A stretch of 64,000 nucleotides of DNA, from the NCBI GenBank assembly GCA_020853095.1, contig JADYZN010000040.1, positions 62,001 to 126,000 on the forward strand. Direction: 5' to 3'. This document shows positions 6,856-42,480 of this stretch, piece after piece (the first letter of the stretch is position 1; every line of letters begins with the position of its first letter). The position numbers and the translations under genes were made by a program. The notes beneath the pieces were generated by a model, which was not told where the DNA came from, searched no databases, and saw nothing but the letters and a program-made list of their open reading frames with translations. Origin of the DNA: Phycisphaerales bacterium. GTDB lineage: Bacteria; Planctomycetota; Phycisphaerae; Tepidisphaerales; Tepidisphaeraceae.

Positions 6856-7878
<1,023 letters not shown>

Positions 7879-7944
7879 GACCAGACTCCTTGGATGTAAA
7901 ATCGCCAATATCGAATCACGTTGACCTCGATGAATGCATAAACA

Positions 7945-7976
7945 AATAACCCCGGGATCGGCGTCCCGGGGTTATT
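7945..7976 (-). terminator. Intrinsic terminator (attenuator) in the aroF leader
   Basis: A perfect 13-bp stem (AATAACCCCGGGA / TCCCGGGGTTATT) encloses a 6-base loop. In the aroF direction it is followed by a U-rich tract (UUAUUUGUUUAU). It lies 66 bases before the aroF start and after the leader-peptide stop codon, so it would end transcription before aroF unless disrupted. No gene end lies next to it, which argues against an ordinary terminator. Confidence 0.8.
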
Positions 7977-8038
7977 GATTGTTTGATGAATCGAACCACT
8001 CAGGACGCGCGTTGGCCGACCGGATAAAAATATCCGTC
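7956..8038 (-). promoter_or_regulatory. Alternative leader structures of the aroF attenuator
   Basis: Two competing RNA foldings can be drawn. A protector hairpin (8018-8038) has core arms CGGAUA/UAUCCG and a UUUU loop. It lies exactly on the leader codons Gly-Tyr-Phe-Tyr-Pro. An antiterminator can form when GGUCGGC (8015-8021) and GUCCU (8002-8006) pair with GGGACGCCGAUC (7956-7967), which removes the 5' arm and loop of the terminator. A ribosome stalled on the aromatic codons would melt the protector hairpin and free the antiterminator strand. The pairings were found by eye; their energies were not computed. Confidence 0.55.
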
Positions 8039-8074
8039 AAACCAGAAGCCAAAGCCCGCGAATCGAGTGTTCAC
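8000..8074 (-). CDS. Aromatic-rich leader peptide of aroF
   Basis: This is a 24-residue reading frame starting at GTG (8072-8074) and ending at TGA (8000-8002). It contains FAGFGFWF followed by DGYFYP: five Phe, one Trp and two Tyr, so one third of the residues are aromatic. The gene it precedes makes the common precursor of Phe, Tyr and Trp. No Shine-Dalgarno sequence is present. The -10 box lies only 7 bases upstream, so translation probably starts at or next to the 5' end of the transcript. The peptide itself is unlikely to have a function beyond sensing charged aromatic tRNAs. Confidence 0.7.
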   Translation of the reverse strand: MNTRFAGFGFWFDGYFYPVGQRAS

Positions 8075-8081
8075 GGGTTGA

Positions 8082-8109
8082 AATTTACCACGGATTTGGG
8101 CCAAGTCAA
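8082..8109 (-). promoter_or_regulatory. Promoter for the aroF leader and aroF
   Basis: On the minus strand TTGACT (8104-8109) and TAAATT (8082-8087) are separated by 16 bases. Transcription would begin within a base or two of the leader peptide GTG. Confidence 0.6.
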
Positions 8110-8170
8110 CTGTTTTTCGGGAATTTTTTGACGACTTGAGGGAAATTTCACGAGGCGATATGTTCGGGGG

Positions 8171-9121
8171 ATGCAAGATAAACCGGTTGTATTGGTGACC
8201 GAAGGCGGAGACCCCAGGCCTTTGGCGTGGTTGAAGGAACGGGCGCGGGTGATCGAGGCGAAGGTGGATGAACCGGCGTATGCCGCCGCGCTGGGAGAGG
8301 CGCAGGGGTTGAGCGTCCGGACGTACACCCGGGTCGATCAGGCGTTGCTGGAACGGATGCCGAAATTGCGGGTGGTTGGCCGGGGCGGGGTGGGATTGGA
8401 GAACATCGACGTGGCGGCCTGCCGGTCGAGGGGGGTGGAGGTGGTTTACACGCCGGATGCCAACACGCTGGCCGTGGGGGATTACGTGGTCGGGTATATG
8501 TTGCAGTTGCTGCGGCCGTGGGAATTTTTTTCGGATGCGCCGTACGGTCCGGCCGAGTTTAAGCGGATTCGCAACACCGTTCGAGGCCGGCAGCTTAATG
8601 AACTGACGATCGGCATCCTGGGGATGGGAAGGGTGGGCCGTCGGGTGGGACATCTGGCGGCCAACGGGTTTGGCATGCGGGTGCTGTACAACGACCTGCT
8701 GGACGTGTCGAATCAATTGATGTTTCCCGCCCGATCGGTGGAGAAGGAAGTGTTGTTCGCCGAGGCCGATGTCCTGACGATTCACGTGGACATGCGGCCG
8801 GGGAACGAACATCTGGTGTGTCGTGATCAACTGTCGCGAATGAAGCCGACGTCGATCGTGATCAACACCAGCCGGGGGGAGGTATTGGACGCGGCCGCGC
8901 TGGCGGAAGCGATCCGGTCAGGGAAATTGTTCGGCGCGGCATTGGACGTTTTTCATCCCGAACCGCCGGGGGAGGATTTTCCGCTGTTGGGATTGAACAA
9001 CGTACTGTTGACGCCGCACATCGCCGCGCGGACGCAGACGGCGATGGAGAACATGAGCTGGGTGGTGCGCGATTTGATCGAGGTGCTGGAAGGCAGGAAG
9101 CCGAAGTATCCCGCGCCGTGA
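8171..9121 (+). CDS. D-isomer-specific 2-hydroxyacid dehydrogenase
   Basis: This is a 316-residue NAD-dependent dehydrogenase of the phosphoglycerate dehydrogenase/D-lactate dehydrogenase fold. The nucleotide-binding loop GILGMGRVGRRVG is in the middle. The catalytic set is visible: Arg in INTSRGEVLD, Glu in FHPEPPGED and His in LLTPHIAA. There is no C-terminal ACT domain, so it resembles short SerA-like proteins rather than regulated SerA. It is divergent from aroF with about 100 bases between this start and the aroF leader peptide. It could make 3-phosphohydroxypyruvate or act on another 2-hydroxyacid; the sequence does not decide. Confidence 0.88.
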   Translation: MQDKPVVLVTEGGDPRPLAWLKERARVIEAKVDEPAYAAALGEAQGLSVRTYTRVDQALLERMPKLRVVGRGGVGLENIDVAACRSRGVEVVYTPDANTLAVGDYVVGYMLQLLRPWEFFSDAPYGPAEFKRIRNTVRGRQLNELTIGILGMGRVGRRVGHLAANGFGMRVLYNDLLDVSNQLMFPARSVEKEVLFAEADVLTIHVDMRPGNEHLVCRDQLSRMKPTSIVINTSRGEVLDAAALAEAIRSGKLFGAALDVFHPEPPGEDFPLLGLNNVLLTPHIAARTQTAMENMSWVVRDLIEVLEGRKPKYPAP

Positions 9122-16684: not shown

Positions 16685-16747
16685 ACCTCCCCAACCCCGC
16701 GCCCTTTGCCCTACCTTTCGCCGCAGGGCCGATTACAATCCTCTGCC

Positions 16748-18244
16748 ATGCGGCGATACTTCCCCGATCTTGAAACGTTCACGGAACAGGCGCGATCCGC
16801 GCAGCTGATCCCAGTCTATCGCCAGCTCCTGGGCGACCGCCTGACCCCCGTCAGCGCCTTTGAGGTGCTGGGGCGGGATGAACACGCCTTTTTGCTCGAA
16901 TCGGTGATCGGCGGCGAGAAAATCGGGCGGTACAGCTTCATCGCCACCGCCCCATCGCTGGTCTATCAGGCGGCCGGCGGGCGGGCGTCGGTTCAACAGG
17001 CCGGGCAGAACCCGCACGAATTTGACACCATCGACCCGCTGGCCGACCTTGCCCGGCTGCTGCCGCCGGTCCGCTATCATCACAGCGCCGACCTTCCCGC
17101 TTTCACCGGCGGCCTGGTGGGATACGCCGGATACGACACCATCCGCTATTACGAAGCCGAAAAGCTCACCCATCCGCCCCGTGATGACCGGCGACTGCCG
17201 GAGGTTCTGTTTGGCCTGTATGGCGAGCTGGTCATCTTCGACCACGTCGATAAAACGATCAAAGTGGTCGCCAACGCCGATCTGCGGTTGAATCCCGACC
17301 CTCAAACCGCCTACAACCACGCCTGCCGCCGGATCGACCAGATCGTCTCCCGGCTGGCCCAGCCGCCCTTGTCGGGCCTTGGCGAAATCGACCCGCGCGC
17401 CCCGATGACGCTGAAATTTGAATCCAATTTCACCCGCGAGGCGTTTGAACAGGCGGTCGAGACAGGCAAGCAATACATCCGCGCCGGCGACATCTTTCAG
17501 TTCGTTCCCAGCCAGCGGTTGCGGGTCTACAGTCAGGCGGACCCTTTTGACGTCTATCGCGCGCTGCGGATCATCAACCCCTCGCCGTTCATGTTTTATC
17601 TCAAAAGCCCGGCCTGCACGCTGATCGGCTCCAGCCCGGAAATCCTCTGCCGGGTGGCCGGCCGCCAGGTCACCAGCCGGCCGCTGGCTGGCACGCGAAA
17701 ACGTGGCTCAACGCCACAGGAAGACCAGGCCCTGGAACAGGAATTACTCGCCGATCCCAAGGAACGGGCCGAACACATCATGCTGGTGGACCTGCACCGC
17801 AACGACATCGGCCGGGTGGCCCGCGTCGGCAGCGTCACCATCAGCGATGTCATGACGGTGGAGCGATACAGCCACGTCATGCACATCACCTCCAACGTCA
17901 CCGGCACGCTGGATGATCAATACACCGCACTGGACGCACTTCGGGTGTCGTTGCCGGTTGGAACCGTCAGCGGCGCCCCAAAAGTCCGCGCCATGCAGAT
18001 CATCGACGAACTGGAACCCACCCGTCGCGGACCATACGGCGGCGCGGTCGGCTACATCGATCTCGCCGGCGACATGGACACCTGCATCGCCCTTCGCACC
18101 ATCGTCTGGAGATCTGGCGTGTTTGACGTGCAGGCCGGCGCGGGAATCGTCGCCGATTCGGTCCCTTCCTCCGAATACGAGGAGACCATGAACAAGGCCA
18201 GGGCGATGCTCAAGGCGGTTGAAATCGCGCAAAATGGATTCTGA
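16748..18244 (+). CDS. trpE: Anthranilate synthase component I
   Basis: This converts chorismate to anthranilate, the first committed step of tryptophan synthesis, using ammonia from the TrpG subunit. The protein is 498 residues. The C-terminal chorismate-binding domain has GDIFQFVPSQR, GSSPEILCR, RPLAGTRKRG, VDLHRNDIGRV, PVGTVSGAPKVRAM and the closing AGAGIVADS. The N-terminal LLESVIGGEKIGRYSF region is the tryptophan feedback site of TrpE, which favours trpE over pabB. The ATG at 16748 fits homology. TACAAT lies 8 bases upstream with no ribosome site, so the mRNA may be leaderless. No trpG is adjacent. Confidence 0.92.
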   Translation: MRRYFPDLETFTEQARSAQLIPVYRQLLGDRLTPVSAFEVLGRDEHAFLLESVIGGEKIGRYSFIATAPSLVYQAAGGRASVQQAGQNPHEFDTIDPLADLARLLPPVRYHHSADLPAFTGGLVGYAGYDTIRYYEAEKLTHPPRDDRRLPEVLFGLYGELVIFDHVDKTIKVVANADLRLNPDPQTAYNHACRRIDQIVSRLAQPPLSGLGEIDPRAPMTLKFESNFTREAFEQAVETGKQYIRAGDIFQFVPSQRLRVYSQADPFDVYRALRIINPSPFMFYLKSPACTLIGSSPEILCRVAGRQVTSRPLAGTRKRGSTPQEDQALEQELLADPKERAEHIMLVDLHRNDIGRVARVGSVTISDVMTVERYSHVMHITSNVTGTLDDQYTALDALRVSLPVGTVSGAPKVRAMQIIDELEPTRRGPYGGAVGYIDLAGDMDTCIALRTIVWRSGVFDVQAGAGIVADSVPSSEYEETMNKARAMLKAVEIAQNGF

Positions 18245-40770: not shown

Positions 40771-41577
40771 TCACCAGTCCTTTCGCAGTTGCGCGATCTG
40801 GAGGCAGCTTTTGAGGATCGGCTCGACCTGATCCAGCGAAAGCATCGTCGCGGCGTCGCTCTTGGCGTTTTTGGGGTCCGGGTGGCATTCGAGAAACAAC
40901 CCCTCCACGCCGGCGGCGACGGCCGAGCGGGCCAGCAGCGGGCTGTAGTGCGGGTTGCCGCCGCTGGAATTGCCCAGGGCGGCCGGCTGCTGGGTGGAAT
41001 GGGTGATGTCGAAGATCACCGGCACGCCGAATTCCCTCATCACCGCCAGGCCGGTGAAATCGTTGACCAGCCGGTTGTAACCGAAGAACGTCCCCCGTTC
41101 GGTGAGCATCACCTTCGGATTGCCGGCGCTTTGGACTTTGCGGACGGCGTTGCCCATCTCGGCCGGGGACATGAACTGCCCTTTTTTGACGTTGACCGCC
41201 CGGCCGGTCCGGCCGCACGCCAGCAGCAGGTCGGTCTGCCGGGCCAGAAAGGCGGGAACCTGAAGGATGTCCACCACGCCGGCGGCGGCCGCCGCCTGAT
41301 TTGGCTCGTGAACGTCCGTCAACAGCGGCACGCCGATCTCGCGGCCGATTTTTTGAAGGATGCGCAAGCCTTCTTCGAGGCCCGGCCCGCGAAACGAGCT
41401 GTCGCTGGAGCGGTTGGCCTTGTCGAAGGAGGCCTTGAAGATGTAGGTCAGCCCCAGTTGCGAGCAGAGTTGCTTCATCCGCTGCGCGATGCGCAGGGAG
41501 AGTTCCTCCGTTTCCAGCACGCACGGGCCGGCGATCACGAACAGGGGGGTTTTGCCCAATCCCAGCAAAGATTCCAT
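40771..41577 (-). CDS. kdsA: 3-deoxy-8-phosphooctulonate synthase
   Basis: This makes Kdo-8-phosphate from arabinose 5-phosphate and phosphoenolpyruvate, supplying the inner core sugar of lipopolysaccharide. The 268-residue barrel has VIAGPCVLET, FKASFDKANRSS, LLTDVHEP, VPAFLARQTDLL, FGYNRLVNDF and LECHPDPKNAKSD. The last segment has the metal-site Asp; Asn in place of Cys at the other metal position (KASFDKAN) is common to metal-independent enzymes, but this was not analysed. GGAG precedes the ATG by 9 bases. It supports a diderm cell with lpxK. Confidence 0.95.
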   Translation of the reverse strand: MESLLGLGKTPLFVIAGPCVLETEELSLRIAQRMKQLCSQLGLTYIFKASFDKANRSSDSSFRGPGLEEGLRILQKIGREIGVPLLTDVHEPNQAAAAAGVVDILQVPAFLARQTDLLLACGRTGRAVNVKKGQFMSPAEMGNAVRKVQSAGNPKVMLTERGTFFGYNRLVNDFTGLAVMREFGVPVIFDITHSTQQPAALGNSSGGNPHYSPLLARSAVAAGVEGLFLECHPDPKNAKSDAATMLSLDQVEPILKSCLQIAQLRKDW

Positions 41578-41583
41578 CGTTGA

Positions 41584-42480
41584 CTACTCCACCACGAAAT
41601 CGAGTTTTCGTTCCATCATCTCAAGTCGAACCGGCGTGAAACCGGCCGGCTCTCCATCCACCTGCACGGCGACCGGGCGATCGGATTCGATCTGGACGAG
41701 TCGGGCCTTGACGCAGGCCGACCCTTCCTGCTGGGCGTGTTCGCCGGCGGCCGCGTGCAGGAAGAGCTTCATCATCTGCAATCTCGACCCGCAGGGCAAC
41801 GCGCACACATCCAGCAACCCATCGTCCGGCCGTGCCCGCGGCAGCATCGGAAAGCCGGTTCCATATTCGCTGATGTTCCCCACGAACGCCACGCCCGGCC
41901 GGGGGCCGAAAATGCGCCGGCCGTCGGCGTGGACGGTGATCGAAGGGAAATCATACCCCCCCACCACCCGCGCGGCCGGCCAGAGATAGCTGCTCTTGCG
42001 GATCGGGCCGCGCCGACGGCGGTCGACTTCATGGACGATTTGCGCATCCACCCCAACGCCGGCCATCAGCAGGAACAACCGGCCGTTGGCCCGGGCGGCG
42101 TCGAGGCTGACGATCCGCCGCCGCCGGATGGCCGCCGCCACCTGTTCGGCGGCGTGGCGGGGATCCCAGCGGATGCCCAGGTGTTGGCCCATCAGGTTGG
42201 CCGTCCCCATCGGCACGACCAGCAACGGCGGCCAATCCTCCCGCGGGCAATGGTCCACCATCCGCCCCGCCACGGCACGCAACGTCCCATCCCCGCCGAT
42301 GACCACGATGCAGCGTACTTCCCGTTCGCAGAGGGTCATGGGGTCGATCGTGTCGGGGCGATCGTGCAGCAGTTCGCAGCGATACCCTTCGCCGGTCAGT
42401 CGGTCGGCCAGGCTCCTTCCCAGCCCCATCGCCGATCCCCGGCCGGCGATGGGGTTGGCGAACAGGAGCACCTTTGGCAT
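41584..42480 (-). CDS. Diacylglycerol kinase/YegS-type lipid kinase
   Basis: The protein is 298 residues of the DAGK catalytic fold. NPIAGRGSA opens the nucleotide site, VVIGGDGTLRAVAGRM is the GGDGT motif, and PMGTANLMGQHLGI is the second conserved block. A beta-sandwich domain ends in VQVDGEPAGF. The lipid substrate may be diacylglycerol, phosphatidylglycerol or a long-chain base. It heads an operon with kdsA (6 bases on) and moaC. No upstream ribosome site is clear. Confidence 0.88.
   Translation of the reverse strand: MPKVLLFANPIAGRGSAMGLGRSLADRLTGEGYRCELLHDRPDTIDPMTLCEREVRCIVVIGGDGTLRAVAGRMVDHCPREDWPPLLVVPMGTANLMGQHLGIRWDPRHAAEQVAAAIRRRRIVSLDAARANGRLFLLMAGVGVDAQIVHEVDRRRRGPIRKSSYLWPAARVVGGYDFPSITVHADGRRIFGPRPGVAFVGNISEYGTGFPMLPRARPDDGLLDVCALPCGSRLQMMKLFLHAAAGEHAQQEGSACVKARLVQIESDRPVAVQVDGEPAGFTPVRLEMMERKLDFVVE

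Follow-up and report, generated by a model that had tools for sequence, protein, structure and literature searches.

Organization of the aroF Upstream Region

The region upstream of aroF in this Phycisphaerales genome raises the question of whether a short, aromatic-rich reading frame, lying between a promoter and a terminator hairpin, regulates the DAHP synthase gene behind it, and which amino acids it would then sense. Within the window (the whole 64,000-nt stretch of DNA that was analysed), the minus strand carries, from 8109 to 6856, a promoter-like pair of boxes, the leader frame, the terminator hairpin and the DAHP synthase gene, in this order. The earlier note had described a promoter, a GTG-started frame of 24 codons, a 13-bp terminator and aroF, and had placed each of them correctly. 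The gene aroF (6856–7878, minus strand, ATG at 7878) encodes a DAHP synthase with an N-terminal ferredoxin-like regulatory domain (PF18152) and a DAHP synthase domain (PF00793; NF006421), and is preceded by the Shine-Dalgarno sequence AGGAGT (7885–7890, minus strand). The nearest named relatives in the enzyme search come from metagenome-assembled genomes of Phycisphaerales/Tepidisphaeraceae, with 80–96% identity, and put the genome close to Tepidisphaeraceae in the class Phycisphaerae. On the opposite flank lies a 2-hydroxyacid dehydrogenase gene (8171–9121, plus strand); because this upstream neighbour is divergent, the predicted attenuator terminator has no other nearby same-strand gene to serve.

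The genome encodes a second DAHP synthase (L002, G000:C14), 45% identical to the first, in whose upstream region a scan found no aromatic leader; genes reading as triose-phosphate isomerase and SecG follow it. The window itself holds a distant relative of the enzyme (L003, G000:C40:102792-103640; window 40792–41640, minus strand), with 31% identity over residues 66–333, and the stretch aligned to the aroF enzyme contains one TAG.

The leader frame (8000–8074, minus strand) starts with GTG and encodes the 24-codon peptide VNTRFAGFGFWFDGYFYPVGQRAS followed by a stop codon, with five Phe, two Tyr and one Trp. Of the window's 1121 distinct short ORFs, no other has at least six aromatic residues in ten. 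The promoter-like pair consists of a −35 box TTGACT (8104–8109, minus strand), with a TTGAC[AT] box likewise placed in most relatives, a 16-nt spacer, and a TG-extended −10 box TAAATT (8082–8087, minus strand) that ends about 7 nt 5′ of the leader start codon. In-frame TTG codons are also found upstream, at 8176 and 8104, and the GTG at 8074 is favoured as the start because of its conservation and the position of the promoter. Most of 29 leaders compared (17 from Tepidisphaeraceae and 12 from the sister family f80) have a TTGAC[AT] −35 box and a −10-like hexamer, mostly ending 6–10 nt before the start codon. The leader has no Shine-Dalgarno sequence before it, whereas aroF of these genomes does have one. 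The closeness of the promoter and the absence of a Shine-Dalgarno sequence suggest that the mRNA starts at the leader start codon, so that it is probably leaderless. Precedents for leaderless leader peptides exist in Actinobacteria (PMC8079986).

Conservation of the Leader among Tepidisphaeraceae

Relatives were scored as carrying the element when an aromatic ORF was followed by a terminator within 5–60 nt. Among the Tepidisphaeraceae (f1) loci with readable upstream DNA, 17 of 18 carry it upstream of aroF, whereas shuffling of upstream regions yields it in 2 of 1055 cases and reverse complementation in 0 of 211. The exception is L145 (G153), where the element is absent and a short region with a simple promoter directly precedes aroF. 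The leaders share the motif FGFWFxGYFYP and start with GTG or ATG; they mostly have 24 codons, with 28 in two leaders and 25 in one. Aromatic residues stand at columns 8, 10, 11, 12, 15, 16 and 17 in 11–13 of the 13 ungapped leaders, in which most other columns drift, and residues outside the codons for the aromatic amino acids, the hairpin described below and the antiterminator 5′ arm are mostly unconserved. Comparison with relatives thus bore out the earlier note, the peptide, terminator position, antiterminator and hairpin all being kept with compensatory changes.

A covariance model built from 15 leaders and searched in 26 Tepidisphaeraceae genomes gave one strong match in 19 of them, with a single copy in the source genome. 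Two of the matches are new members, L237 (MNRFDAAFGFWFTGYFYPADQSAS), with aroF downstream, and L244 (MSRRNATFGFWFSWYFYPPQTCAF), which lies at a contig end; wherever the downstream gene is readable, strong matches precede aroF. Other leaders were sought before trpE, pheA, pheS and a second chorismate-binding gene, the last two scanned only roughly; trpE (16706–18244) and pheA (24949–23819), both in the window, have no aromatic leader. Covariance models of the Rfam leader families and the T-box gave no match at gathering score within 7500–8500.

Predicted Terminator, Antiterminator and Hairpin within the Leader

The transcript from 8074 to 7878 folds at −67.8 kcal/mol, compared with −57.0 ± 4.4 kcal/mol for shuffled sequences (z −2.5; 4 of 200 shuffles do as well). 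The predicted intrinsic terminator, formed by segments 3 and 4 (7945–7976, minus strand), has a 13-bp stem (AATAACCCCGGGA/TCCCGGGGTTATT) and a 6-nt loop, followed to about 7935 by the tail TGTTTATG, which is U-rich but interrupted. Segment 2, the 5′ arm of the antiterminator (7993–8012, minus strand), comprises the last leader codons, the stop codon and the next bases, with the core GCGTCCTGAG at 8008–7999. Segment 3, its 3′ arm (7958–7974, minus strand), corresponds to the 5′ arm and loop of the terminator (TAACCCCGGGACGCCGA). The computed duplex of segments 2 and 3 reaches −21.5 kcal/mol, versus −11.2 kcal/mol when shuffled. The competing antiterminator pairing, which according to the earlier note can be drawn, was recovered by computation, and relatives have it at the corresponding site across the stop codon, with compensatory changes.

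In all 29 leaders, a terminator-like hairpin begins 23–45 nt past the leader stop (23–34 nt in Tepidisphaeraceae alone), and the 5′ arm and loop of this hairpin can pair with a stretch made up of the final two leader codons, the stop codon and the bases behind it. The partners differ between families, GCG TCC TGA G pairing with CUCAGGACGC or CCCGGGACGC in Tepidisphaeraceae and CGGCGGGCU with AGCCCGC in f80; segment 2 of Tepidisphaeraceae reaches −18.7 kcal/mol when matched with its own partner, versus −7.3 kcal/mol with those of f80. Nearly all 29 duplexes of segments 2 and 3 are better than those of shuffled segment 2 (mean z −2.8). Double changes preserve these pairs in L040 and L042, and A-U to G-C double changes preserve the terminator stem. 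Two f80 members, L050 and L056, have aromatic ORFs but no convincing pairing of segments 2 and 3. In these two, a CGGGCT stretch able to pair with the terminator arm sits among the aromatic codons instead of at the stop codon, and their switch may be differently arranged.

The codons for Gly-Tyr-Phe-Tyr-Pro form a further hairpin, CGGATA-UUUU-UAUCCG (8021–8036, minus strand). Its presence on the Tyr-Phe-Tyr codons had been pointed out in the earlier note and is supported by covariation; the number of pairs is corrected here to six (CGGATA/TATCCG), and the protecting role suggested for it stays at the level of inference. Both this hairpin and the terminator are selected by RNAalifold without guidance. 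In a comparison of 15 distinct sequences, 86.7% of cells are paired and eight cells are changed on both sides. The covariation score is 0.363, compared with 0.153 for shuffled alignments, and none of 500 shuffles reached it; shifting the partner by one column about halves the pairing. In L038, L072 and L144 the closing pair is exchanged by changes in third codon positions, and L044 replaces GYFYP by AYFYA with all pairs kept (GCATA/TATGC). Randomisation of synonymous codons gave a weak signal per sequence, and an exchange of complete 3′ arms, with five pairs considered, gave 125/10000.

In ribosome-free folds of single sequences, segment 1 (8064–8073, minus strand) pairs with segment 2, and in nearly all Tepidisphaeraceae leaders the Tyr-Phe-Tyr hairpin forms the apex of a long hairpin running from the start to the end of the leader. 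Applied to the first 85 nt, RNAalifold found the Tyr-Phe-Tyr hairpin alone and not the outer helix of segments 1 and 2, whose sequence is not conserved, and for this reason conservation of the outer helix is not claimed. The Tyr-Phe-Tyr hairpin could possibly act as a protector or as a pause signal.

Proposed Mechanism of Attenuation

The sequence design, the conservation and the alternative pairings obtained by computation correspond to what characterizes leaders of the trpL/pheL type, namely a short ORF rich in aromatic codons, a terminator between leader and gene, and a competing antiterminator that a ribosome can mask. We therefore consider it probable, at roughly 0.8, that this DAHP synthase is controlled by ribosome-mediated attenuation of transcription, of the trp/phe type. 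RNA polymerase would start at or beside the leader start codon, and ribosomes would translate the leaderless leader directly. With ample charged tRNA-Phe, tRNA-Tyr and tRNA-Trp, the ribosome would reach the stop codon and cover segment 2 (8012–7993), segments 3 and 4 would pair, and transcription would end near 7940. Shortage of any of the three aromatic amino acids would stall the ribosome between codons 5 and 17 and leave segment 2 free to pair with segment 3, allowing read-through into aroF. That transcription terminates, that the ribosome stalls and that each amino acid affects induction are all inferred steps.

The geometry of this proposal was modelled by folding the transcript as far as the terminator loop with the ribosome footprint masked. 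With the A site at codons 2–18, about 13–15 antiterminator pairs remain in the aroF leader; with the A site at codons 21–25, less than one remains, and the last aromatic codon is codon 17. In the model, therefore, a stall at any aromatic codon allows antitermination, whereas arrival at the stop codon forbids it. Several observations speak against the attenuator, i.e., ribosome-free equilibrium folding prefers pairing of segments 2 and 3 before the 3′ arm of the terminator is made, which leaves the state of an untranslated leader uncertain, the U tail is interrupted, the outer helix of segments 1 and 2 appears in single-sequence folds only, and L145 does without the element.

Amino Acids Proposed to Be Sensed and Alternative Explanations

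Codons for Phe, Tyr and Trp are all present in the 17 Tepidisphaeraceae leaders. The Trp codon is found away from codon 11 in several of them, at codon 14, 15 or 16 in L034, L035 and L043 and at codon 4 in L144; that it moves and yet is never lost in the 17 leaders lends indirect support to the idea that Phe, Tyr and Trp are all sensed. The suggestion of the earlier note that all three are sensed therefore gains from the codon content and from the modelled geometry, with a known system of Corynebacterium glutamicum advising caution. By the account given in PMC11802643, the aroR leader of that species, with the codons Phe-Tyr-Phe, answers Phe and not Tyr. This precedent lends some weight to a genuine attenuator with no more than one or two amino acids as its input, Phe and Tyr being the likeliest and the Trp codon being minor, as do the five Phe and two Tyr against one Trp in the aroF leader and the analogous leaders of other groups that have no Trp (L027, L031, L089, L134). 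We regard such a restricted input as rather unlikely, however, given the retention of the Trp codon in all 17 leaders despite its shift between codons 4 and 16, the location of every aromatic codon inside the modelled permissive window, and the lack of an aromatic leader before trpE and pheA of the source genome. The broader proposal, that trivalent attenuators with leaderless leader genes occur across the phylum at the entry step of the pathway and that shortage of Phe, Tyr or Trp would each induce DAHP synthase, stands in our judgement at about even odds.

The unusual constancy of FGFWFxGYFYP in Tepidisphaeraceae could also be expected from a nascent-peptide sensor of the TnaC type, in which the aromatic chain would bind free amino acids and arrest the ribosome at the end of the leader. 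Its regulatory sign would be the same, with segment 2 covered and the terminator in place under an ample supply of amino acids. However, the order of the aromatic residues differs from family to family (RFWFYYFTG, FFWFYFYG, YCYWVFYYFKYYYK), which fits codon content and not an arrest sequence, and RNA pairing accounts for the constancy of Gly and Pro, as L044 turns both into Ala with the pairs kept. Such a sensor is accordingly improbable. The leader peptide or the terminated leader RNA might instead act in trans, as a small protein or small RNA, with the terminator merely ending the transcript, and peTrpL of Sinorhizobium meliloti is presented in PMC7298713 as a leader peptide acting in trans. 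A function of this kind would leave the pairing across the stop codon and its constant spacing without purpose, and most residues encoded elsewhere than in the aromatic codons, the hairpin and segment 2 are not conserved, which makes it very improbable. Finally, a chance aromatic-rich frame before a constitutive or bidirectional terminator, to which the scoring of the aroF-leader hairpin as a terminator on the plus strand too might point, is practically negligible in view of the conservation and covariation in relatives, the rarity of passing shuffles, and the one strong copy per genome, which lies before aroF wherever the downstream gene can be read.

Analogous Leaders in Other Groups

With groups taken from sequence-record naming and genome-table family codes, an aromatic peptide with a terminator behind it precedes aroF in 8 of the 17 loci from f80 and its neighbours, in 16 of the 31 from other planctomycetes, in 7 of the 56 from further Phycisphaerae, in 5 of the 15 from Chloroflexota and in one locus from Acidobacteriota. 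The combination was found in none of 43 loci of Omnitrophota and others, none of 8 of Bacillota and none of 20 second-type aroF loci. The distant leaders carry Phe, Tyr and Trp in other orders than Tepidisphaeraceae, and 20 of 29 show pairing of segments 2 and 3 at z below −1.64. In the stretch searched, ten (L011, L012, L018, L019, L020, L023, L027, L089, L094 and L124) have no adequate pairing; for these ten, as for L050 and L056, the claim is limited to peptide and terminator, because the pairing falls short.

In three Anaerolineales loci (L094, L124 and L089), the leader stop lies about 510–600 nt upstream of aroF. As read from its sequence, L094, which belongs to the Chloroflexota loci counted above, has the aromatic leader and terminator, then a gene reading as an AroH-type chorismate mutase, and then aroF; if the chorismate mutase reading holds, an operon of this type would be attenuated as a whole.

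An attenuator needs a ribosome close behind RNA polymerase, and the proposed mechanism, if true, would therefore imply coupled transcription and translation in planctomycetes. A spatial separation of the two processes has reportedly been claimed for Gemmata, and in planctomycetes the aroF leaders would allow coupling to be tested by simple genetics. They could also act as multi-input aromatic sensors.

Comparison with Known Attenuators

Leader-peptide attenuation would be extended by these leaders to Planctomycetota and probably to Chloroflexota. In 2010, a survey of premature terminators, whose main text mentions neither planctomycetes nor Chloroflexi, gave leader peptides as known only from Proteobacteria and Actinobacteria and added Firmicutes (PMC2965389). 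A literature search, with subscription journals largely outside its reach, found no such planctomycete leader described.

The closest known arrangement is aroR-aroF of C. glutamicum (Neshat et al. 2014), also noted in PMC4046766, in which an aromatic leader peptide likewise precedes a DAHP synthase gene and ribosome-mediated attenuation, as proposed here, is involved; its leader responds to Phe, with Tyr having no effect, by the account in PMC11802643. It belongs to another phylum, and the present leader has eight aromatic residues including Trp, the two being set apart by description. The uORFC-13-1 motif, with 24 representatives from Acholeplasma and environmental sequences only, is also a predicted uORF with one or more Phe codons and a terminator before aroF; at least one Phe is described for it and Tyr or Trp are unreported, so that it too is set apart by description (PMC8632094).

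The proposed arrangement of segments 1 to 4, with competing 1:2, 2:3 and 3:4 pairings, of which 1:2 is the least certain here, and stalling at codons for pathway products, would be that of pheL-pheA, pheST and trpL-trpE of E. coli. Those systems, however, sense one amino acid each, have leaders with a ribosome-binding site, and control genes of terminal branches or a tRNA synthetase instead of the common first step. The remark of the earlier note that classical attenuators usually sense one amino acid is too strong, as the ilvGMEDA and ilvBN leaders of E. coli contain mixed branched-chain codons (PMC6123439). The aroF leader resembles these in combining, in one leader, codons for several products of one branched pathway; they concern branched-chain amino acids, and shared sequence is not expected. 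The mechanism is thus a classical one, but an attenuator for Phe, Tyr and Trp together, and one in Planctomycetota, appears to be undescribed. Judged from sequence, what would be new relative to known attenuators is the trivalent aromatic input, together with the leaderless state of the leader and the groups of hosts, and one leader could report on Phe, Tyr and Trp at their shared biosynthetic step.
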